Source of the DNA: a virus
Length of the DNA stretch: 38,705 bases
IMG/VR virus record: IMGVR_UViG_3300023099_000118
Coordinates: 1-38,705 of that record
Strand: one strand, 5' to 3'
The notes under the pieces are model-generated. The model was not told the origin of the DNA and ran no database searches. It worked only from the letters and a program-made list of their open reading frames with translations. Below, piece after piece: positions 3,655-16,375 of the stretch; within the stretch, counting starts at the first letter, position 1, and each line of letters opens with the position of its first letter. The translations under genes and the position numbers were made by a program.

Positions 3655-3999
3655 TTATCTCCAAATGAAGCATTCAAAGCCGTAATCGAGCTTTGGAAAG
3701 TTGTTGTAAAAGGTATCGATATCGTCGTCGCTAGTGTTGTCGTTGACGCTCAGTAAAAAAGTGGCCCAATGTTCGTAAAGTTCATTAATCGCTTTATCCA
3801 TTAACTCATTTGCGGTTTGCTCCAGTACGGGCAATAGGTCCTGCAGCATGATGGGTTGATCAACTAATATTTCGTCGCTGTCTTTGGTGTTTGTAAATGG
3901 CAGCTTGACCCATGCAACAACGCGAAAACGATTTTTCCCGCGTGGGATGTAATGTTGTTTGCGCGTGTTGGGTGCGCGGAATATAAAAAATGGATGCAT
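3655..3999 (-). CDS. Hypothetical early protein
   Basis: A 114-residue acidic protein starting MHPFFIFRAPN. Its ATG overlaps the methyltransferase stop as TAATG after GGAAGGCGGCC, so the upstream longer frame (to 4068) is unlikely to be used. No motif is recognised. The C-terminal half is rich in Asp and Asn (NDNTSDDDIDTFYNN). It lies within the tight leftward operon directly after the DNA methyltransferase, with two bases between its stop and the next start. Confidence 0.55.
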   Translation of the reverse strand: MHPFFIFRAPNTRKQHYIPRGKNRFRVVAWVKLPFTNTKDSDEILVDQPIMLQDLLPVLEQTANELMDKAINELYEHWATFLLSVNDNTSDDDIDTFYNNFPKLDYGFECFIWR

Positions 4000-5558
4000 T
4001 AGGCCGCCTTCCTGATTTCTTGCGTGTTGTAATTCGCGCGCACTAGCGCTTCGGATAATGCAGGGCAAACACTGTTGCCGCAGCGTGCAACCTGTTTGTA
4101 TTTTGGTATCGAATTACCTTCGGCATCGCGATCAATGATGTAATCGCGCGGGAATCCTTGGGCGGCAAATAATTCGTGCGGCTCCAGCATGCGCATGCCG
4201 ATATCGACTATTTGATATTGCTCGCCGCGTACCGTTACCAATCCAAACCTGTCTTGTGCGGTAACCGTGTGCAATGGCTCGCGCAGGCCCACGCCTTCTT
4301 TTTCGTTGCCGTAATACTTAATAAGGAATGCGCGCACTTCACCAACGTGGCCGCCACCAGCGGTTAAAGTTGGCAGTGGTTGCTCCACGCTGCGCGCGTC
4401 GCAGTTGTTTCTCAGGTGCAGCAGGTGCGTTGTGACAAGTGCGTTGTGATCAACGGCTGTCACCGTGGGTAATGGATCGTCAATAGCCGCTCCGGCGCCG
4501 CTGTAATTTCCGCCGTAGTGTTTTGCCAAAAATGTTGAGACAACGGCGAATCCGGGAGAGGCGGTAATGGTTCGGGTCGGCTCTTCCGTTGTCCATGTAT
4601 TGGGCCCGCGACCCGTTGTTTTGCTGTTGGCGCAATTCACGATAACTGGTGTGACTAGGCAGTGTTCTGCCTTGGTGGTGATGGTTGTTAATGGCTGGCC
4701 AGTTTCGTATTGCATGCCTGAGCCGCCAAAACCCTGTTGGCCAATGCGTACCACAAACGGTTTTGGGTTATCGATAACGTAGCGCTGGATGCCGCGCGCA
4801 ATTCGGCGCAAGGTGTTTTCTGCCAGTGATTTTTTGCGGGAAAAAATTGAAGGGCATGGAATTGACCAGTCAATAATATCCGCAGCGGTTTTCCATCTTT
4901 TTAGCCCAGACTTTTTAAAATCCAGTCGCGCCGGATTTCCGTGCGTTGGTCTTGGCCAAACGATTGGCTGGCCATCGCAACGGGCGATTAGGAAAAAGCG
5001 TTTGCGAATGGTGGGCGCGCCGAAGTCGCTGGCAATCAGATTGCGATGATCGACTGTGTAGCCAAGCTGCTCCAGTTGCCGTTTAAAGCTGGCGAATGTT
5101 TTGCCTTTGCGTGCAGGGCAGGGCTTGCCATCGATCACCGGCCCCCACGTTTTAAATTCTTCAACGTTTTCCAGCATGATAATGCGCGGCTTTACCGTCG
5201 CAGCCCAGCGCATTGCAACCCATGCCAAACCACGTATTTCTTTGTTTACGGGCGTTGCGCCTTTGGCCTTGGAAAAGTGCTTGCAGTCCGGACTAAACCA
5301 CGCCAAGCCAACCGGCTGGCCGTTAGTGACTTCGCGCGGGTTTATATCCCACACGCTTTCGCAATAGTGCTTAGTGTGTGGGTGGTTAATGGTGTGCATT
5401 GCTATCGCATCCGGATCATGATTGATGGCGATATCTACCGGGCGACCAAGTGCCGCTTCAATACCAGTGCTCGCGCCGCCGCCGCCCGCGAAGTTGTCCA
5501 CGATAATTTCATCAAGCCATAAATTGCATTGGGGGCTTGTTCGATAACTGGTTAACAT
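3999..5558 (-). CDS. dcm: C5-cytosine DNA methyltransferase
   Basis: A 519-residue methyltransferase that puts a methyl group on C5 of cytosine in DNA, probably shielding phage DNA from restriction. Motif I is DNFAGGGGAST (21-31). Motif IV is WFSPDCKHFSKAKG with catalytic C92, the usual PPC being PDC. ENV is at 130-132 and the RxR motif VIII at 185-187. GNSVCP near the C-terminus is motif X. Between motifs VIII and X, five repeats of a P-L-x-T-[IVL]-T-A pattern fill a long target-recognition region. No restriction endonuclease gene lies beside it, so this is an orphan enzyme. AGGACTAAAA precedes the ATG. Confidence 0.93.
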   Translation of the reverse strand: MLTSYRTSPQCNLWLDEIIVDNFAGGGGASTGIEAALGRPVDIAINHDPDAIAMHTINHPHTKHYCESVWDINPREVTNGQPVGLAWFSPDCKHFSKAKGATPVNKEIRGLAWVAMRWAATVKPRIIMLENVEEFKTWGPVIDGKPCPARKGKTFASFKRQLEQLGYTVDHRNLIASDFGAPTIRKRFFLIARCDGQPIVWPRPTHGNPARLDFKKSGLKRWKTAADIIDWSIPCPSIFSRKKSLAENTLRRIARGIQRYVIDNPKPFVVRIGQQGFGGSGMQYETGQPLTTITTKAEHCLVTPVIVNCANSKTTGRGPNTWTTEEPTRTITASPGFAVVSTFLAKHYGGNYSGAGAAIDDPLPTVTAVDHNALVTTHLLHLRNNCDARSVEQPLPTLTAGGGHVGEVRAFLIKYYGNEKEGVGLREPLHTVTAQDRFGLVTVRGEQYQIVDIGMRMLEPHELFAAQGFPRDYIIDRDAEGNSIPKYKQVARCGNSVCPALSEALVRANYNTQEIRKAA

Positions 5559-5962: not shown

Positions 5963-5982
5963 ACCCGCCGTTGCCAGCGGGT
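5963..5982 (-). terminator. Weak hairpin terminator
   Basis: ACCCGC pairs with GCGGGT around an eight-base loop. Read leftward it is followed by four T residues. It is the last of three hairpins met by leftward transcripts between DUF2303 and the small membrane genes, and probably only lowers downstream expression. Confidence 0.4.
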
Positions 5983-6009
5983 ACCACTTTCTGTGTTGCG
6001 TATGTCGGC

Positions 6010-6071
6010 GCAACCTTAAAAACTCTGTGTGCAAAGTGTTTAAGGTTGCCCACTGGTGAGGGGCCAGTGGG
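6010..6071 (-). terminator. Two adjoining hairpins after DUF2303
   Basis: GCAACCTTAAA (6010-6020) pairs with TTTAAGGTTGC (6039-6049), and CCCACTGG (6049-6056) pairs with CCAGTGGG (6064-6071). The two stems compete for base 6049. They start nine bases after the DUF2303 stop in the leftward direction. No strong T-run follows either, so they may stabilise or process the mRNA rather than end it. Confidence 0.4.
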
Positions 6072-6079
6072 ATCCCGTT

Positions 6080-6925
6080 TTAAACTGGTGGAATGGCGTG
6101 TACCAGGTGGCCAATCTGCTTGCCTTCATTAATTTTGTTTACGACGTCATTAAACGCGTCGTCTACAAATACATGCGGGCGAATGAGTGTGTACCACATG
6201 GTTAAACCGCCTTGAGCAATCCGGTACCGGAAACGGGCTTCAACCATGTAAGCGGCACCTTTCATAAACGGTGCAACCACTAAGCTGATTTTTTCCGGTA
6301 TTTGTAGTTGCGCGGTTACACCGGCTTGGCCTTCGATTTTTTCGGTAAAGTTGAACTGCACTTCGCCGTTGTCTAACCGGATTGCGCTTCTAAAATCGGT
6401 GCTGCTACTCGCTTTTAATGTGGAGGCAATTTGCAACATGGTCGCGCCGTCTGGCTCGGTAATTTCTTTCAGGTTTTCTTCAATGAACAAGGCAAATTGT
6501 TCTTGCTCCATTTTCTTATTGTTGAATTCCATCCATGCGCCCCATTCTTTAGTTTTGGGGCATTTGTAAAACGCGGTGTGGCGTTTCCATGCTGGGGCGT
6601 CTGGCGCTTCGTGGTAGTCAAAAACGGCGGTTAGCGTTGATTCTTTGTCATTCACAAAAATGGTGCTGCTTTCGGTGGCATAGCGATTGAAGTACTCGAT
6701 AAAACTTTCTTCGGTGAGCAGCTCAATGCTTTGCTTCAAGTGGCGAGGGCGGGCAAGCTGACCTTCGACTAACGCGCTCAAGTCGTGCACTTTCATATCA
6801 TCGGGAACGATGAATACCGGTACATCATTTACCTGTGTTTGAATCACCTGTTTTTTTCCGAATTCAATCGCGGATTGAAAATCGAATGCGGCTGGTATGT
6901 TAGATAATGCCTCTGACTGTTCCAT
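6080..6925 (-). CDS. DUF2303 family protein (YfdQ-like)
   Basis: The 281-residue protein matches DUF2303, the family of YfdQ in the E. coli CPS-53 prophage. Recognisable parts are the opening with FDFQSAIEFGKKQ, a DLSALVEGQLARPRH segment, TAVFDYHEA, WGAWMEF, and the C-terminal RFRYRIAQGGLTMWY followed by a run on removing intervals (PHVFVDDAFNDVV). DUF2303 proteins are common early phage proteins of unknown function. AGGAGAAACC precedes the ATG. It follows the 123-residue gene by 29 bases, an arrangement like yfdP-yfdQ. Confidence 0.9.
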   Translation of the reverse strand: MEQSEALSNIPAAFDFQSAIEFGKKQVIQTQVNDVPVFIVPDDMKVHDLSALVEGQLARPRHLKQSIELLTEESFIEYFNRYATESSTIFVNDKESTLTAVFDYHEAPDAPAWKRHTAFYKCPKTKEWGAWMEFNNKKMEQEQFALFIEENLKEITEPDGATMLQIASTLKASSSTDFRSAIRLDNGEVQFNFTEKIEGQAGVTAQLQIPEKISLVVAPFMKGAAYMVEARFRYRIAQGGLTMWYTLIRPHVFVDDAFNDVVNKINEGKQIGHLVHAIPPV

Positions 6926-6954
6926 GGTTTCTCCTATAGCTAATTTGGTGCGGG

Positions 6955-7326
6955 TTAAAGGGTTTTCACTTCTTTTGTTGGTTCATCAACAAGCTTGGTA
7001 ATTTGCGGTGTGGCGGGAACGATTTTTAAATCCAGCGTGCCTTGTGCTGGATCAGTACGTTGCAGGTTGCCCTCGGGTGTGCCCCAGAAAATCGTGTCGC
7101 CAATTGCGAGCTCCGGCTTTTTCACTTTAATTTCCGGGCGCAGGAAGTACTGGCCAGAATCGCCTTTGTCCGGGCGCACGGTGATGGTTAAAGTGATTGA
7201 GCCTTTTTGCTCGGTCTCGCGACACGATTGAATTAACTCGTTGAGTTTTTCGCTCAATTCCTCTTGGGTTTTTCCGTTGCGGATTTGCCCAATGGTGTAA
7301 GCGTAAAGGTCTTGTCTAGTTCCCAT
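6955..7326 (-). CDS. Conserved phage early protein upstream of DUF2303
   Basis: 123 residues, MGTRQDLYAYTIGQIRNGKT at the start, then a beta-rich part (GSITLTITVRPDKGDSGQYF). It holds the place that yfdP holds beside yfdQ in E. coli; I claim the position only, not homology. The start is well supported by GGAGGTAAAA, and its ATG lies inside the end of the upstream gene. The even strand content and lack of motifs suggest a small binding protein. Function unknown. Confidence 0.6.
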   Translation of the reverse strand: MGTRQDLYAYTIGQIRNGKTQEELSEKLNELIQSCRETEQKGSITLTITVRPDKGDSGQYFLRPEIKVKKPELAIGDTIFWGTPEGNLQRTDPAQGTLDLKIVPATPQITKLVDEPTKEVKTL

Positions 7327-7528
7327 TTTTACCTCCGTTTTCAGTTAGATGATCTTCACAAATTTGTACTGCTTCTTTGATCGTTGGTGCCGAACCCAGT
7401 GATGGTTTTGCAGTGCTGGCACCTGGTGGCCATGCTGTGTATCGCCCTGCTGCGCCTTCTGGGCCCTTAGTAACTCGGTAGTGCTTATCGCTCTCGATGT
7501 AGTGAGCGTCTTTCTCTTCCCAGTGCAT
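7316..7528 (-). CDS. Hypothetical early protein
   Basis: A 70-residue soluble protein (MHWEEKDAHYIESDKHYRVT) with a central Gly/Ala/Pro-rich stretch and a helical C-terminus (IKEAVQICEDHL). Its ATG overlaps the upstream KilAC gene stop as TAATG after an AAGGCGGG ribosome site, and its own end overlaps the next start by 11 bases. The overlaps support a real gene. No family recognised. Confidence 0.55.
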   Translation of the reverse strand: MHWEEKDAHYIESDKHYRVTKGPEGAAGRYTAWPPGASTAKPSLGSAPTIKEAVQICEDHLTENGGKNGN

Positions 7529-7992
7529 TAACCCGCCTTATGGATCGGGATCCCCATTGCAGCCAATTCCTGTAAACACTTCTCGCGCTCTTTACTGTCT
7601 GCCGGTGATCGCTCTGTGCGTTGGATTTGCGCTGCGTTTTGTTCGTTTAATTCCAGTGGAATAGGTGGCATTACTGCCGTTTTATTCAGGATTAATTCCA
7701 TTGCGTTTATTCCGTGCCTTGTCATTACGGTTACCTGGTACAGCAGCGCTATGCGGCTGTCATACGGGGCGGGGCGCTGGCGTTGTTCAGTGGTGAGGTA
7801 GCCAGCCTTGCGCGCCCATTCTTTGGGGCTGTTCTTCGCGTCGTCGCCCTTGAAGGTTCCGGCGTGGATCCAGCCTGGAATTAGCGGCGTTGTGTGGCTC
7901 TCGCCGCGCAACATTTTGTAAAACTCGATATGCCCCATGCCAAACATCCCTGCCGCTGTTTTAAGGTCGAAAGTTCTGATTGCATGGCTCAT
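7528..7992 (-). CDS. KilAC-type antirepressor-domain protein
   Basis: 154 residues. The region 9-100 has the KilAC pattern of phage antirepressors: a helix-turn-helix opening (LKTAAGMFGMGHIEFYKMLR), a middle with KEWARKAGYL, and the YQVTVMTRHGINAME ending that corresponds to the conserved ...T.KG... close of KilAC. No N-terminal Bro or Rha domain is present, so it is a stand-alone KilAC protein. KilAC proteins typically modulate repressor activity or early phage transcription. Start ATG is three bases after the preceding stop. Confidence 0.65.
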   Translation of the reverse strand: MSHAIRTFDLKTAAGMFGMGHIEFYKMLRGESHTTPLIPGWIHAGTFKGDDAKNSPKEWARKAGYLTTEQRQRPAPYDSRIALLYQVTVMTRHGINAMELILNKTAVMPPIPLELNEQNAAQIQRTERSPADSKEREKCLQELAAMGIPIHKAG

Positions 7993-7994
7993 GG

Positions 7995-8564
7995 TTAGGC
8001 CGCTCTTTTGTTTGAATCCCGGATAAGTGGAACCAGCTTTGCGGCAATCTCTTGTTGGTCGTCGTTGCCATTGCCAAGCTGATAAGTCAGGTCAAAAAGT
8101 TTTGCGTTACGCGGATGAAAATCACCCGAGCCTTTGCCTCCTTGGCGGTATAGGTGGATCATGATTCCGCCGCGCGAGCGGATGTAGTCCGCTTCGTACG
8201 TGTGGTTAATTCCGCTGACGATGTGGCCGCTAAATAAATTTCGCGTGGTGGGTGTGAAGCCTTGCACTGATGTGCAGAGTCGTTCGGCCAAGGTTTCAAT
8301 AAAATATTTGTTATTGACGCCGCAAATGCAGGAATAGAATTCGCGCTCAAATGCAGCGACAGTGCAATTTAATTTGCCGATGCGATCGGTACCCGCCATA
8401 GACGATGCAACGATTGGGGGAACGCCTGTGATGCTTGCGAGCACATCTACAAACGGCTGGCGCATGCTGACGTGCATAAGGCTCAGGCTATTGCTGATTG
8501 TAAAAATAACTTTCTTGGCTTCTTCTGAACGCTCACCCGTAACGCCTATTAAAAAAGTATTCAT
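7995..8564 (-). CDS. Degenerate dNMP-kinase-like P-loop protein
   Basis: 189 residues from ATG 8564, which overlaps the upstream stop as TAATG after AAGGAG. The outline follows phage deoxynucleoside monophosphate kinases: an N-terminal beta strand plus loop (FLIGVTGERSEEAKKVIF), SLMHVSMRQPFVDVLASITG, and a late IRSRGGIMIHLYR segment matching the GG-V-I-I-R strand, then DFHP. The P-loop lacks the G-K-[ST] signature and the usual D-R-F-N-E motif reads GINHTYEAD. I infer a fold retained without the usual catalysis. It may serve as a host-directed binder. Assignment is moderate. Confidence 0.45.
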   Translation of the reverse strand: MNTFLIGVTGERSEEAKKVIFTISNSLSLMHVSMRQPFVDVLASITGVPPIVASSMAGTDRIGKLNCTVAAFEREFYSCICGVNNKYFIETLAERLCTSVQGFTPTTRNLFSGHIVSGINHTYEADYIRSRGGIMIHLYRQGGKGSGDFHPRNAKLFDLTYQLGNGNDDQQEIAAKLVPLIRDSNKRAA

Positions 8565-8989
8565 TAACAAGACTCCTTGATTGTGAATTGATTGTTGCTC
8601 CCATTGCGCTGTGAGCGTGCGAAACTACGGTTGAACTGAGTGCGCGGGTTGCGCGCAATTCTTGCGGTATCGTTATGCGAATCTGGTGCTATTGATGCAA
8701 ATAACGCGATAAATGCTGCTGCAAAAAGTGAAAGGAATTGCAGGTGCAGTGATTCAAATGCCCGCATGATTAATGCGGGTGTGCTGTTCACTTCCAGCTT
8801 GAAAAATAATTCATTGAGAATTTGTTTTACGTTATTGTTGCTGCAATTTAAAAGCTGCGCGCACTCGCGCACTGACTTACCCTGGGCGCGCAGTAGCAGC
8901 ACTTGCGATTGACGTGGTGTTAAGCCGCTCGCATGTAGGTGGCCGATTTGATAGCCGGTGTCTGTGCGTTGGGTGAGTGGGGCGTTCAT
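8564..8989 (-). CDS. LuxR-type HTH protein with membrane segment
   Basis: 141 residues. Residues 22-70 (GLTPRQSQVLLLRAQGKS, ECAQLLNCSNNNVKQIL) are a good GerE/LuxR helix-turn-helix. Immediately after, LQFLSLFAAAFIALFASI is a likely membrane helix, and the C-terminus is basic and Asn-rich. No receiver or autoinducer domain is present. It may regulate early transcription from the membrane. It overlaps both neighbours as ATGA or TAATG. The HTH call is firm; membrane location is inferred. Confidence 0.75.
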   Translation of the reverse strand: MNAPLTQRTDTGYQIGHLHASGLTPRQSQVLLLRAQGKSVRECAQLLNCSNNNVKQILNELFFKLEVNSTPALIMRAFESLHLQFLSLFAAAFIALFASIAPDSHNDTARIARNPRTQFNRSFARSQRNGSNNQFTIKESC

Positions 8990-9910: not shown

Positions 9911-10645
9911 CTAAAAATCCAAAATCATTTGCACGACTACACCTACGATTTCGCAATTTCCGTTAACTTTTATTAGGCTGTGCTGCGGATTTAGGGGTTT
10001 TAAGTATGTGTGAGGCCCGTCAATAACAAGTTTTTTGAGTGTCACGTCATTCGTGTCGGTCAATTTTGCGATCACGATTTTCCCATTAACTGCCGGTATT
10101 TCTGGATCTACAATAATAATTGCCCCATCTGGTATCGATGGGCTGCCATAAGGGTTGGTCATTGAGTCGCCTTCAACCCTAAGTGCAAATGCGCTCGCGC
10201 TGATGTTTGCCGCAGTTAGTCGCCATTCATCTGAATCCCCGGGCTGATGCAAATCAATTGCTTCTCTCCATTCGCCTGCCGTTACCCACGAAATTAGTGG
10301 CACTTTAGTTAATCCTTTACTGGGCGTTACGTTGTATAGGCCTGTTGCTTCCTTGATCTCATAATCGAAGATATCTATTCCGGGAATGGGTGCTTCGCCT
10401 CTGAGCTGTGCTGGAGTGAGGTCAAGCTTGTTTGCAACGATGAGAATTTTATCGTCTTTTGGTTGCGTTCCAGTTCTGAGCCAACGGAAAAAGGTTGGCT
10501 GCGGAATTCCGAAATATATGGCCGCATTGCCCTGATGCAGTTCGTTATCTCCTTTCATTAAGGAGGGAACTTTTAGTTTGCACGCAAGCAAAAGAGTCTC
10601 AACAAATGTACGGGGTAGGAATTTATTCATAAACGAATAATACAT
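9911..10645 (-). CDS. cI: CI-like repressor, LexA/S24 peptidase family
   Basis: The prophage repressor, 244 residues. Residues 15-65 hold a helix-turn-helix region (GNAAIYFGIPQPTFFRWLR) and the C-terminal half is a LexA-type S24 domain. The self-cleavage site is A123-G124 (WVTAGEW), catalytic Ser S161 (GDSM) and Lys K204 (VTLKKL), so SOS-induced cleavage should work. I keep the ATG at 10645 because AGGGA precedes it at about 11 bases; ATG 10630 has no ribosome site. It diverges from cro across the operator. Confidence 0.92.
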   Translation of the reverse strand: MYYSFMNKFLPRTFVETLLLACKLKVPSLMKGDNELHQGNAAIYFGIPQPTFFRWLRTGTQPKDDKILIVANKLDLTPAQLRGEAPIPGIDIFDYEIKEATGLYNVTPSKGLTKVPLISWVTAGEWREAIDLHQPGDSDEWRLTAANISASAFALRVEGDSMTNPYGSPSIPDGAIIIVDPEIPAVNGKIVIAKLTDTNDVTLKKLVIDGPHTYLKPLNPQHSLIKVNGNCEIVGVVVQMILDF

Positions 10646-12206: not shown

Positions 12207-14999
12207 ATGAATGATTTTGATTGTTCCCTTGATGATATTAAAAGCGCCCTGCGGCATTTGGATTGCGAGGACACGGCTGTTTGGCTGCGTTCCGGTATGG
12301 CAATTAAAAGTGAATTCGGCGAAAGCGGTTTTGATATTTGGGATGGCTGGAGCCAAGGCGACTCGCGCTACAAGTACAAAGAGGCCTTGGCCAAATGGAA
12401 AAGTTTTAAAGGGAGTAGTGCGCGTGGCAGTGTAAGCATCGGCACTATTTTACATTGGGCATTTGAGCGCGGTTTTAAATTTGAGCGCCCGGATTTAACC
12501 CCGGAACAAAAAGCCGAATTCGCCAAAGAGCGCGACCGGCGCCGCAAGCTTGCTGCTGAGGCGGCCGCAATTGAAGAGGCAAATATTCAGCGCTGGTATG
12601 GTGTTGTTGCTGATACGTGTAATTCACTTCTCCCGCTATTAAAACCTACCGGTGTTTCAAAATACCTCGGCATGAAAAAGGTTGGTGCTTACGGTGTTCA
12701 TTTTGCGCCGCACTCTTTTGTTATTCGCACTAAAGATAATTTCACGGTTGATGTTTTTACCGATACACAAGCCATCGCACAGTTCTTTGAAAAACAAAAA
12801 TTAAAATCCAAGGCTGAGCGCGAAGCCGATTCATTTCACTTCTTCAAAAAAGGTTCCATCCTTGTTCCGCTGCGCGATATGAGCGGTGCGATTAAAAACT
12901 TTCAAATTATTTGGAATGATGGAAGCTCCAAGCGGTTTTTTACCAATGGCCGCAAGAGTGGCTATTACCATTTGATTGGTGAAATTGCCGATGTGCCGAT
13001 TATTTTTTGTGAAGGGTATGCCACTGGTGCGAGCCTGCATAAAGCAACAGGCTGGCCAGTGGTGGTGTGTTTTGATGCTGGCAATATGCCGGTGGTTGCT
13101 GAATTGTTTGCTGACTTCCCGCATCAAAAAATCTTTGCCGGGGATAATGATTGGGAAACTGCATTAGACCCTAAAAAGAAAAACGCCGGGTTGGTTAAGG
13201 CGCAAGAGGCCGCGCAGATTGGTCGCGGTACCTGGTGCGTTCCCCAATTTTTGGGTGATGCAAAAGGGTTGAGCGATTTTAACGATTTGCACGTTTCAGA
13301 AGGTCTCGCCGAAGTCACCGTTCAACTTAATGATGCATTGCTAAGTTCCCAATTGGTATCCGGTATTGCTGGCGCACTTAATTCGTTCATCGCAGAAATT
13401 GATAGGGATTCACCTCCCGATTATGGCGACATTCCGTTACCTGGTGACGATTATATTCCGCCGAACGATGGCTCTCCCGAACCCTCTCTTTCCGCTGAGC
13501 AACTTTCGCTTGATGATTTAATTAATCGCTACGCATTGACTGATCCAGATGCAAAAGTCTGGGATTCTTTGCAGAAGAAAATCATTAAGGCGGGCGCTTT
13601 TAAAAGCATCGTCCGCCCGGCTATGTATAAGCAATGGCTTGAGCACGATAAGCGCCGCACGGTACTGCTTGATGACGTGGCTCGCGAAGTCGCCAACGCG
13701 CAAAAAAGGGGGCGTGGGGGGTTAGCGCAATCGCTTAACCGCTACGTTTACCTAAACCCGAGTGATAGTGCGTGGGATAAAGTGGATCGCCAGATTGTCG
13801 CGCTGAGCCATTTGCGATATGCGATCGCTGATTGTTTTGAGATGTGGGTTAAGCATCCGGATCGGGAAGAAATCCCGCACAAGAATTTAGTGTTTGACCC
13901 TACGCAACAATGCGATACCAAAACCCATATAAATCAATTCCGTGGGCTCGCCATAAAACCCAGTGATGATCTTGACCGCTGCCGTGGAATTGTCGCGATG
14001 CTGCGCGGGCTGTGTAACAACGACCCTGCGGTTTTCAAATGGCTGCGGCGCTGGCTGGCGTACCCGTTGATTAATGTGGGCGCCAAGATGGAAACATCGG
14101 TGCTGTGCCACTCCGATGTGCATGGCTCGGGCAAGAGTTATTTCTTTGATGTGGTGATGCGCGCAATTTACGGCGAGTACTCGCGCACGGTTGGCCAAGC
14201 CCAACTTGAAGGCCAGTACAACGATTGGATGAGCAAGGTGTTGTATTGCGTGTATGAAGAAGTATTAAGTCGCAGCCAGCGTTACAGCCACACAGGCACG
14301 ATTAAGCAGACCATCACCGGCAAGACGGTTCGCATTGAAAAGAAATTTATGAGCGGCTGGGAAGAGGCCAACCATATGAATTCTGTGTTCTTGTCCAATG
14401 AGGTGTTGCCGCTGCCGGTGGAGCCGAGCGATCGACGGTTCCTGGTGATATGGCCGGAAACAAAACTGTATGAAGATTTGCAGCGTGCAGTTGATACCGA
14501 ATTAAAAAATGGTGGTGCTGAGGCCTTCTACCGATTGCTGTTGAACACCTCCATGCAGGATCCCGGTGAAGAGTATCCGTTTGATGAGCATACCAAACCT
14601 CCGATGACCGAAGCGAAATCGCGCCTGATCGAGCATGGCCGACCGATATGGGAGGTTTTCTATAACGAGTGGAAAGACCTGGGGTTGGAGCACAACGGCT
14701 GCTCAGTGCCTTATTGTTCGGTGCGCCTCGCTGACCTGTACGCAATCTTCCAGACCTGGTGCAAGCGGAATAATGAGCACGGTATGGGCGCGCATAAATT
14801 CTCCAGTTTTATCGGCAGTAAATTAAAAAAGCGCACTGACTTGCACTACAAATTTATGAACTGCAGCGGTAAATCTTCTTTTTACATTGTTGGTGAACCA
14901 CCAAAAGATAAATCACAAGAAGAGTGGTTGGGTGGTTGCGTGTGGGAATTTGAGCGAATTTCTTATCAGGCGCCGCCAGATATTGGTGAAGCCGCATAG
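12207..14999 (+). CDS. Replicative primase-helicase
   Basis: 930 residues in three parts. Residues 1-90 resemble PriCT-2 (FDIWDGWSQGDSRYKY; a domain joined to primases). About 258-345 is a TOPRIM domain with E269 (CEGYATGAS) and D313-N-D315. About 590-760 is a DUF5906-type superfamily 3 helicase: Walker A HGSGKS (639-644), Walker B-like YEE (683-685), sensor SNE (730-732) and arginines 743-744. The C-terminus looks like a winged helix, possibly the origin binder. It should start replication by unwinding the origin and laying primers, as P4 alpha does. The iterons begin four bases after its stop codon. Confidence 0.9.
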   Translation: MNDFDCSLDDIKSALRHLDCEDTAVWLRSGMAIKSEFGESGFDIWDGWSQGDSRYKYKEALAKWKSFKGSSARGSVSIGTILHWAFERGFKFERPDLTPEQKAEFAKERDRRRKLAAEAAAIEEANIQRWYGVVADTCNSLLPLLKPTGVSKYLGMKKVGAYGVHFAPHSFVIRTKDNFTVDVFTDTQAIAQFFEKQKLKSKAEREADSFHFFKKGSILVPLRDMSGAIKNFQIIWNDGSSKRFFTNGRKSGYYHLIGEIADVPIIFCEGYATGASLHKATGWPVVVCFDAGNMPVVAELFADFPHQKIFAGDNDWETALDPKKKNAGLVKAQEAAQIGRGTWCVPQFLGDAKGLSDFNDLHVSEGLAEVTVQLNDALLSSQLVSGIAGALNSFIAEIDRDSPPDYGDIPLPGDDYIPPNDGSPEPSLSAEQLSLDDLINRYALTDPDAKVWDSLQKKIIKAGAFKSIVRPAMYKQWLEHDKRRTVLLDDVAREVANAQKRGRGGLAQSLNRYVYLNPSDSAWDKVDRQIVALSHLRYAIADCFEMWVKHPDREEIPHKNLVFDPTQQCDTKTHINQFRGLAIKPSDDLDRCRGIVAMLRGLCNNDPAVFKWLRRWLAYPLINVGAKMETSVLCHSDVHGSGKSYFFDVVMRAIYGEYSRTVGQAQLEGQYNDWMSKVLYCVYEEVLSRSQRYSHTGTIKQTITGKTVRIEKKFMSGWEEANHMNSVFLSNEVLPLPVEPSDRRFLVIWPETKLYEDLQRAVDTELKNGGAEAFYRLLLNTSMQDPGEEYPFDEHTKPPMTEAKSRLIEHGRPIWEVFYNEWKDLGLEHNGCSVPYCSVRLADLYAIFQTWCKRNNEHGMGAHKFSSFIGSKLKKRTDLHYKFMNCSGKSSFYIVGEPPKDKSQEEWLGGCVWEFERISYQAPPDIGEAA

Positions 15000-15112
15000 T
15001 TTTTGCCGTTTTGCCGTTTAGTGTGCCGTTTTTAGTGAATTTGTAACTTATTGAATAGTAAGGAAATGCCGTCTTGCCGTCTTGCCGTTTTTTGTTTTGC
15101 CTCACGCGCGCG

Positions 15113-15139
15113 TTACGTGCATGTGTGTGTGTATGTACG
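15113..15139. repeat. Alternating purine-pyrimidine tract
   Basis: About 27 bases of strict alternation with a (GT)n core, preceded by CACGCGCGCG. It lies at the symmetry centre of the iterons. Such tracts can flip to Z-DNA or unwind under supercoiling. Confidence 0.6.
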
Positions 15140-15164
15140 GATTAAATAAAATCCAGAATCAATA

Positions 15165-15190
15165 AATGTTTTCTCACGTGAGAAAACATT
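15165..15190. repeat. Perfect 26-bp palindrome inside the origin
   Basis: Both halves of 13 bases match exactly about the centre at 15177/15178 (core CTCACGTGAG). It lies three bases from the right-hand iterons. It may bind a dimeric protein or extrude as a cruciform. No T-run follows, so it is not a terminator. Confidence 0.7.
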
Positions 15191-15317
15191 AAACGGCAAG
15201 ACGGCATGACGGCAAATAGATAAATATCAATAACTTACATGATTTTGAAAAACGGCATTGAGACGGCATTAAGACGGCAAAGTATTTTTGAAGATTTTTA
15301 TAACATTCGGGGGCTGT

Positions 15318-15698
15318 ATGCAGGACGAAAAGAGTTGTTTACCGGAATGGTTTTCTCCGTTGCTTGAAGAGTGGGGCCGCGAATATGGTAAGGGTCGAGT
15401 CGTTGATTTGAGTGCGCGATCGGGAACGCAAATGATTTGGGGATCTGGTCATCGCGGTAAGGGTTTTTCATCTACTGAGGCTGAGCGCGCACTTGTAAAC
15501 AAGGCATTTTATGAGTTGCGGCAGGTGAGCGAATATGCGGCCGGTATGATCGAATTTGTCTATCTTGGTGGCCGTTGTAAATCAATGCGCGAGGTCGAGC
15601 ATGAATACGATTTGAGTAATCGTGCTGCGGGTGAGGAGGTTGGTGCTGCTGAGGCCTTGCTCTATTCCGAGTTCATTCGATTTAAACGTGCCGCATAA
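15318..15698 (+). CDS. Candidate late regulator (Q-like antiterminator)
   Basis: 126 residues from ATG 15318, chosen because GGGGG lies just upstream. The first part is MQDEKSCLPEWFSPLLEEWG, with a basic GHRGKG turn. Residues 70-120 (MIEFVYLGGRCKSMREVEHE, then YDLSNRAAGEEVGAAEALLY) follow the spacing of a sigma-70 region 4-like helix-turn-helix. It stands between replication and lysis genes and directly before a promoter facing strong terminators, the place of lambda-type Q. Role inferred from context and HTH. Confidence 0.55.
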   Translation: MQDEKSCLPEWFSPLLEEWGREYGKGRVVDLSARSGTQMIWGSGHRGKGFSSTEAERALVNKAFYELRQVSEYAAGMIEFVYLGGRCKSMREVEHEYDLSNRAAGEEVGAAEALLYSEFIRFKRAA

Positions 15699-15703
15699 AT
15701 AGT

Positions 15704-15732
15704 TTGCATTTTTGATCAAAGAGATTTATAAA
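15704..15732 (+). promoter_or_regulatory. Candidate late promoter (PR'-like)
   Basis: TTGCAT (15704-15709) and TATAAA (15727-15732) with a 17-base spacer. Transcription would start near 15740 and meet a strong terminator at once, the layout expected of a Q-dependent late promoter. Confidence 0.5.
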
Positions 15733-15761
15733 TTGCTTCACGCTTGGCAGAGCTACACGAT

Positions 15762-15796
15762 AAAGGCCGTTGGGGAAACCTAACGGCCTTTTTGTT
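15762..15796 (+). terminator. Strong rho-independent terminator
   Basis: AAAGGCCGTT pairs with AACGGCCTTT and the stem extends inward to 13 pairs closed by a GAAA tetraloop. A T-rich tail follows. It lies about 22 bases after the predicted start of the late transcript. Confidence 0.9.
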
Positions 15797-15841
15797 TGCG
15801 GCTCTGAAAGCGCTCTTGCTACAAGTCGATAGGTGCTTTAT

Positions 15842-15871
15842 GCCCGGTACGAAAGTGCCGGGCTTTTTTTT
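15842..15871 (+). terminator. Second rho-independent terminator
   Basis: GCCCGGTAC and GTGCCGGGC form a nine-base stem with a GAAA tetraloop followed by eight T. It ends 12 bases before the lysis gene, so late transcription must read through it. Confidence 0.9.
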
Positions 15872-15883
15872 GGAATTTATTTG

Positions 15884-16375
15884 ATGGCAAAAATAGTTTG
15901 CGGTTATGGGTTGGTTGGTCCCGCTCAGGTGAAGCAGTTCGCCCAAGCTGTCTGTGATGTGCTGGGTGCTGGTGAACAAAACTCTGCTGTGTATTTGTTG
16001 TGTGAAACGGCTGCCGCTGAAACTGGTTATGGAACTTATCGCGATTCAACGCCTGGTGGTGCTGGCCGTGGTTTGTACCAATGCGATGAAATTGCGTTTA
16101 AGGATGTGCAGCAGCGTACTCGCCAAGCTGACATCGATGCGCTGCAGGCGGCATTTGATTTCGATCTGCGTAAGGTTGAATGGGATGATTTGAATTTGTC
16201 CCCATTGCTTGCGACTGTGTTTGCTCGCTTGCACTACAAGTTAAAGCCCGAGGCCATCCCGCTAACGCTGCTTGGTCGCGCTGGCTATTGGAAAAAGTTT
16301 TACAACACATCGTCGGGCAAAGGCTCTGCCGATGAATACATCGCGAGAGTGAAGCCGTTTCAGGTCTATTTCTAA
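15884..16375 (+). CDS. Putative endolysin (muramidase or transglycosylase-like)
   Basis: 163 residues from ATG 15884; the longer frame begins inside a terminator. LLCETAAAETGYGTYRDSTP, then GGAGRGLYQCDE, resembles the glutamate-centred active site of lysozyme-like muramidases and transglycosylases, with E41 and E46 as candidates. LLGRAGYWKKFYNT and GKGSADEY are conserved in a phage family I know only from lysis or late regions. It should cut peptidoglycan. No signal peptide, so it needs the holin in the next gene. The exact bond cleaved is not clear. Confidence 0.6.
   Translation: MAKIVCGYGLVGPAQVKQFAQAVCDVLGAGEQNSAVYLLCETAAAETGYGTYRDSTPGGAGRGLYQCDEIAFKDVQQRTRQADIDALQAAFDFDLRKVEWDDLNLSPLLATVFARLHYKLKPEAIPLTLLGRAGYWKKFYNTSSGKGSADEYIARVKPFQVYF

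Follow-up and report, generated by a model that had tools for sequence, protein, structure and literature searches.

A mirrored frame of twelve iterons downstream of a phage primase-helicase gene: a probable replication origin with exchangeable repeat sequences

The iteron block and its surroundings

The window, by which we mean the entire 38,705-nt stretch of viral DNA that was analyzed, contains genes for an integrase, an S24 repressor, a primase, a holin, a terminase and head proteins. Its left-hand part also encodes a C-5 cytosine DNA methylase (3999–5558, – strand). An earlier, sequence-only reading had described positions 15000–15317 as a non-coding block lying directly after the primase gene, in which twelve TGCCGT iterons form four trios, two pointing right and two pointing left, with group centers mirrored about position 15140. 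This description was borne out in full: each of the twelve sites was found at its coordinate (Table 1), the spacings within the trios are 8/12, 8/8, 8/8 and 11/11, the group centers pair about 15140–15141, and the block is bounded by the primase stop codon at 14999 and by the next conserved start codon at 15318. The small conserved gene that begins there (15318–15698, + strand) returned no family match; in a Halomonas phage record, the gene at the equivalent place is annotated as an antitermination protein.

Table 1. Coordinates of the features in and near the iteron block
Feature	Position	Strand	Basis or remark
S24 repressor	9911–10645		
Primase-helicase, 930 aa	12207–14999	+	Pfam and PHROGs; phrog_2249 DNA primase, E 2.9e-133
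Predicted winged-helix DNA-binding domain of primase, residues ~841–894	14727–14888	+	AlphaFold
Iteron trio, outer left	15004–15029 (TGCCGT at 15004, 15012, 15024)	+	
IHF-like site ATTCAATAAGTTA	15044–15056	–	One mismatch to WATCAANNNNTTR; in the spacer of the left arm
Iteron trio, inner left	15067–15088 (TGCCGT at 15067, 15075, 15083)	+	
Alternating purine-pyrimidine tracts CACGCGCGCGT, then 26-nt TACGTGCATGTGTGTGTGTATGTACG	15103–15139		Z-DNA-prone; directly after inner left trio
Perfect 26-bp palindrome AATGTTTTCTCACGTGAGAAAACATT	15165–15190		Before inner right trio
Iteron trio, inner right	15193–15214 (TGCCGT at 15193, 15201, 15209)	–	
IHF consensus site TATCAATAACTTA	15225–15237	+	No mismatch; in the spacer of the right arm
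Iteron trio, outer right	15252–15279 (TGCCGT at 15252, 15263, 15274)	–	

TGCCGT is not enriched over the window as a whole (29 copies vs. 24.9 expected), and 12 of the 29 lie inside one 300-bp stretch, the densest stretches elsewhere containing 2. When a 440-bp region was subjected to 1000 dinucleotide shuffles, the top hexamer reached at most 5 copies vs. the 12 of the real sequence. No second iteron cluster was detected in the window or in the available flanks of the relatives checked, and a nucleotide search with the block against phage records gave a single 27-bp match, taken as chance. At the level of single bases the mirror is close and inexact, the sums of the mirrored pairs being 283, 280, 281, 281, 281 and 281. 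Measured against jittered groups in the window alone, its exactness was not significant (10 of 12 sites within 1 bp, p = 0.28); the evidence lies in the order of six right-pointing and six left-pointing sites and in the recurrence of this order in relatives.

Each arm of the block has a candidate site for IHF between its two trios. Perfect IHF consensus sites occurred in 10 of 55 loci vs. 0.4 expected, and sites with no more than one mismatch in 40 of 55 vs. 13.5 expected. The two sites of the window are matches to this consensus, at which IHF would be predicted to bind. In most members a long alternating CG-rich tract is found a few bases 3' of the inner left group, and a conserved TTTYYCACGCGAGG-like element is located just before the inner right group in relatives, its counterpart in the window being the 26-bp palindrome. 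The center is thus asymmetric, though the iterons around it are symmetric.

The primase-helicase and its C-terminal domain

Domain searches of the primase identified PriCT_2 (residues 11–85) and a DUF5906/D5-type SF3 helicase (residues 637–744; DUF5906 E 8.8e-17), together with a Toprim_3-like part at residues 265–366 that scored slightly under the cut-off. A zinc ribbon was not matched in this protein, PriCT_2 being present instead. The last 480 residues were modeled by AlphaFold with a pLDDT of 87.8, and the best PDB folds for the model were the NrS-1 helicase, poxvirus D5/E5 and SaPI5 Rep. Absence of the structure of the P4 alpha domain from the fold-match lists excludes nothing. Modeling of the C-terminal domain alone (pLDDT 90.1) gave helices followed by a two-stranded wing. 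Its fold matches were weak, though of the expected type, and included the RFX winged helix DNA-binding domain (Z 5.6) and Cdc6/Orc1 on origin DNA (Z 5.0), and a weak Pox_D5 match fell at residues 842–885 of the same region. In this model helix 862–870 is the likely recognition helix. When PDB sequences were searched with an alignment of the winged helix, the matches were only glutamate oxidase chains (E > 0.06), which were taken as chance.

Conservation of the frame and exchange of the iteron

The comparison of related phages that the sequence-only reading had suggested was carried out on the 3' side of the primase gene in relatives (designated by L numbers) drawn from viral contigs, genomes and phage records. 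In nearly all of them an iteron block of like size and frame is present directly 3' of the primase gene. The top hexamer 3' of the primase stop exceeded all 100 shuffles in 86 of the 90 relatives surveyed, a sample that includes near-duplicates and is reduced to 56 rows at <92% identity. The sequence-only reading had held that absence of the repeats from close relatives with the same primase would refute an origin. That test misfires, as shown by the close relative L001/L019 (66% identity over the whole protein), which is without TGCCGT and has twelve CCCGTA in its place, at offsets from the primase stop of 0, 8, 20 / 63, 71, 79 / 183, 191, 199 / 242, 254, 263; on the same scale the TGCCGT sites of the window are at 4, 12, 24 / 67, 75, 83 / 193, 201, 209 / 252, 263, 274. 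More distant relatives have closely similar frames built from GGCCGGA, TACCGGA, ACCCGA, CACGGGT, TGTGCAGG, GCAGGGT, CAAGGG, TGTTGGG, TGTCTA, TGGTTA, TAGGGT or TCAGAC. The mirrored three-by-four plan, for which the sequence-only reading knew no precedent, is not peculiar to the window phage and is found again in a wide range of phages.

Two classes of frame were distinguished. Class A, the mirror class (>>> >>> / <<< <<<), occurs in several branches, and some of its members have an extra inverted single site in each arm. Among mirror-class members, to which L042 and L046 were assigned by reading their site maps, the inner spacing is 8 or 9 in 80 of 81 intervals, the outer spacing is mostly 11 or 12, and the length of the center ranges over 84–116 bp; with fixed spacings in the arms and a variable center, the arms look like rigid units. 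For L045 and L041, 12 of 13 sites are mirrored to within one base. Class B (>>> < >> / <<< >>>) is mainly confined to one Pseudomonas-type branch, and its fourth group points right, so that not every relative needs a strict mirror.

A change of helicase type likewise leaves the frame in place. In L007, a contig labeled Marinagarivorans sp., residues 1–486 of the primase (5968–8941) match the window protein at 53% and the helicase half is VapE-like (PF05272); the block downstream is still mirrored, with TGGTCA as its iteron, which indicates that the frame outlives the helicase type. The L007 relatives L099–L101 carry related blocks, with TGGACA in L101. The primase of L002 (4119–6819) has a broken reading frame at about 5074–5147, through either a frameshift or a sequencing error, and its iteron block is intact. 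L063 (4464–5400) has no intact block 3' of the primase stop, and a degenerate remnant of the center is located about 600 bp further.

The winged-helix region of the primase diverges with the iteron. The window protein and that of L019, which have unlike iterons, are 83% identical in the helicase and 60% in the winged helix. L041 and L042 are 95% identical in the helicase and 56% in the winged-helix region, with TGTGCAGG and TACAGGGT as their respective iterons, which looks like an exchange of the winged-helix domain and the origin together. Relative to the helicase, the loss of winged-helix identity was 0.24 in five close pairs with unlike iterons vs. 0.07 in 155 pairs with like iterons, and the observed partial correlation was reached by none of 500 permutations; these tests use related sequences, the informative ones being the five close pairs plus L041/L042, and as the pairs are not independent they provide support, not proof. 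We infer that the iterons would be read by the C-terminal domain of the primase.

The split origin of phage P4 was compared with these frames. In the P4 record, crr lies directly 3' of the alpha gene and ori1 about 4.5 kb away. The ori1 sites fall at 0, 10, 21, 45 (inverted), 86 and 96 in one register (>>> < >>), and in the left half of class B the sites are at 0, 9, 20, 45 (inverted), 86 and 95, so that all six agree within 1 bp, a match obtained in 5 of 100,000 trials with shuffled intervals and strands. This is good evidence from site positions that P4 ori1 corresponds to the left half of the class-B frame. For the P4 crr unit and the class-B right half, 4 of 6 sites match, which is of weak significance (about 2% by chance) and is suggestive of a second such correspondence. 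We take P4 to be probably this frame divided in two, with the ori1 half better supported than the crr half. Alpha is a Toprim_3 and DUF5906 initiator like the window primase, with crr 3' of its gene. P4 differs from the window in its iteron (GGTGAACA vs. TGCCGT), in the zinc ribbon of alpha, where the window protein has PriCT_2, and in having ori and crr split instead of one compact mirrored cluster. The arm of the window departs from the ori1 frame as well: it has no inverted single site, and its outer trio is about one helical turn closer.

Interpretation as an origin and relation to known systems

The most probable reading of 15000–15317, which we put at roughly 0.85, is a replication origin of a temperate phage read by the primase encoded upstream. 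The comparison with relatives and the precedents at the same place (Sfi21 and P4 crr) support this reading of the sequence, and origin activity itself is what we infer from them. GC skew, proposed with the sequence-only reading as a check, was positive on both sides of the block with no turn at it, and was uninformative with regard to an origin. Weighing against the reading are the unequal outer trios of the window (8/12 and 11/11), the right-pointing fourth group of class B and the lack of a DnaA box near the block.

Other functions for such a block were weighed. It occupies the same position relative to the primase gene as P4 crr does to alpha, and the partial fit of the class-B right half to crr geometry points the same way; an accessory element of the crr kind, assisting an origin situated at some other place in the genome, would account for both. 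A crr-like role is nevertheless improbable, given that no second iteron cluster was found in the window or in the available flanks of the relatives checked, that the class-B block combines an ori1-like left half with a crr-like right half, and that the Sfi21 block at the same place is labeled as the origin itself. The block might also act as RNA, its transcript forming one long hairpin for termination or regulation between the primase and the downstream gene. Although the predicted fold is far stronger than that of shuffles (z –11) and pairs all twelve sites with their mirror partners, any mirrored set of sites gives such a fold. The central palindrome has a weak terminator score on the – strand; on the other hand, class-B relatives (L048, L014, L062 and L008) keep the frame of sites and lose the mirror-paired hairpin, unequal spacing is tolerated in mirror arms, and the Rfam matches were all far below the gathering score, which together leave an RNA element highly improbable.

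Repeats near an early gene can serve as operators or centromeres. The block adjoins such a gene and in class B keeps its sites without the full mirror, as might repressor operators or a parS-like centromere. We give a site for transcription control or partition the slightest of chances, since the change of iteron tracks the C-terminal domain of the initiator itself, no sigma-70-like promoter was found in 14900–15900, the S24 repressor gene lies elsewhere, and the place 3' of the primase is that of known origins.

If the block is an origin, it could be used as follows. Each protomer of the primase would bind one TGCCGT through its C-terminal winged helix, and IHF or another bending protein would fold the ~43-bp spacer of each arm, bringing the outer and inner trios side by side; judging from the consensus matches, bending of the spacers by IHF is somewhat more probable than not. 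A folded arm would then present six sites, sufficient for one hexamer. As the arms point at each other, two hexamers would meet head to head across the 100-bp center, in which the Z-prone CG tract and the AT-rich palindromic stretch would be melted; by analogy with known initiators, we lean slightly towards such a double hexamer. The hexamers would move to single strands and depart as two forks in opposite directions, with the primase part laying primers. By analogy, the block is best read as a self-loading helicase origin that would operate in the manner of SaPI Rep/ori, P4 alpha and SV40.

Tentatively, and with more doubt than assent, we propose that one frame of about 12 sites, with facing trios spaced by IHF sites and a Z-prone center, may be shared across D5- and VapE-type initiators, the repeat word and the DNA-binding domain being exchanged so that co-resident phages share no origin, and P4 ori and crr being its halves pulled apart. 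Should P4 ori1 and crr be such halves, the need of P4 for a second, distant cis element would become directly testable. A joint change of iteron and winged helix would be a natural escape from the origin of a resident phage, as the "phage inhibitory" label of Sfi21 suggests. Origins are usually recognized by sequence; here it is the positions that are kept, with the sequence left to vary. This offers a route to origins in many uncharacterized phages, as well as matched pairs of initiator domain and iteron in a natural series.

An initiator helicase with an iteron origin 3' of its gene is an already known kind, represented by SaPIs, P4 and Sfi21. The core origins of SV40 and papillomaviruses are served by an SF3 helicase that forms a head-to-head double hexamer on short sites, set in inverted groups around a palindrome and an AT-rich tract. 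SV40 has 2+2 pentanucleotides, against the 6+6 sites in IHF-spaced trios of the window. These are animal viruses, and the origin-binding domain of their initiators is N-terminal (PMC7581432), in contrast to the predicted C-terminal domain of the window primase. In SaPIs, the C-terminal domain of the Rep helicase reads iterons directly downstream of its own gene, apparently as two hexamers (PMC7581432). The window resembles SaPI Rep/ori and the SCCmec Cch2 origin in its D5-type SF3 core, in its C-terminal (here predicted) DNA-binding domain and in having iterons directly 3' of the gene, the first one at 15004 following the primase stop at 14999; the SaPI5 Rep fold match agrees with this. It differs in that a single primase-helicase, encoded by the phage, carries Toprim and PriCT-2, and probably also in its four trios, their mirrored frame, the IHF-like sites and the Z-prone tract.

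Streptococcus phage Sfi21 has a 302-bp non-coding stretch directly 3' of a DUF5906/Pox_D5 primase gene, labeled in its record as "origin of replication, phage inhibitory sequence", in which inner right and left pairs of GTTAC with a spacing of 8 face each other. It differs from the window in its GTTAC iterons, a less regular outer part, the lack of an IHF consensus and a different host group. For a mirrored fixed frame with exchangeable iterons, or for the P4 ori1 match, no description was found in the literature searched, in which subscription papers are sparse; this is not proof of absence. A DnaA box, a feature of DnaA-dependent iteron plasmid origins, was not found near the block of the window. 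Among the relatives, L049 and L077 have a perfect DnaA box (TTATCCACA) in the center of the block, where L098 has a variant.
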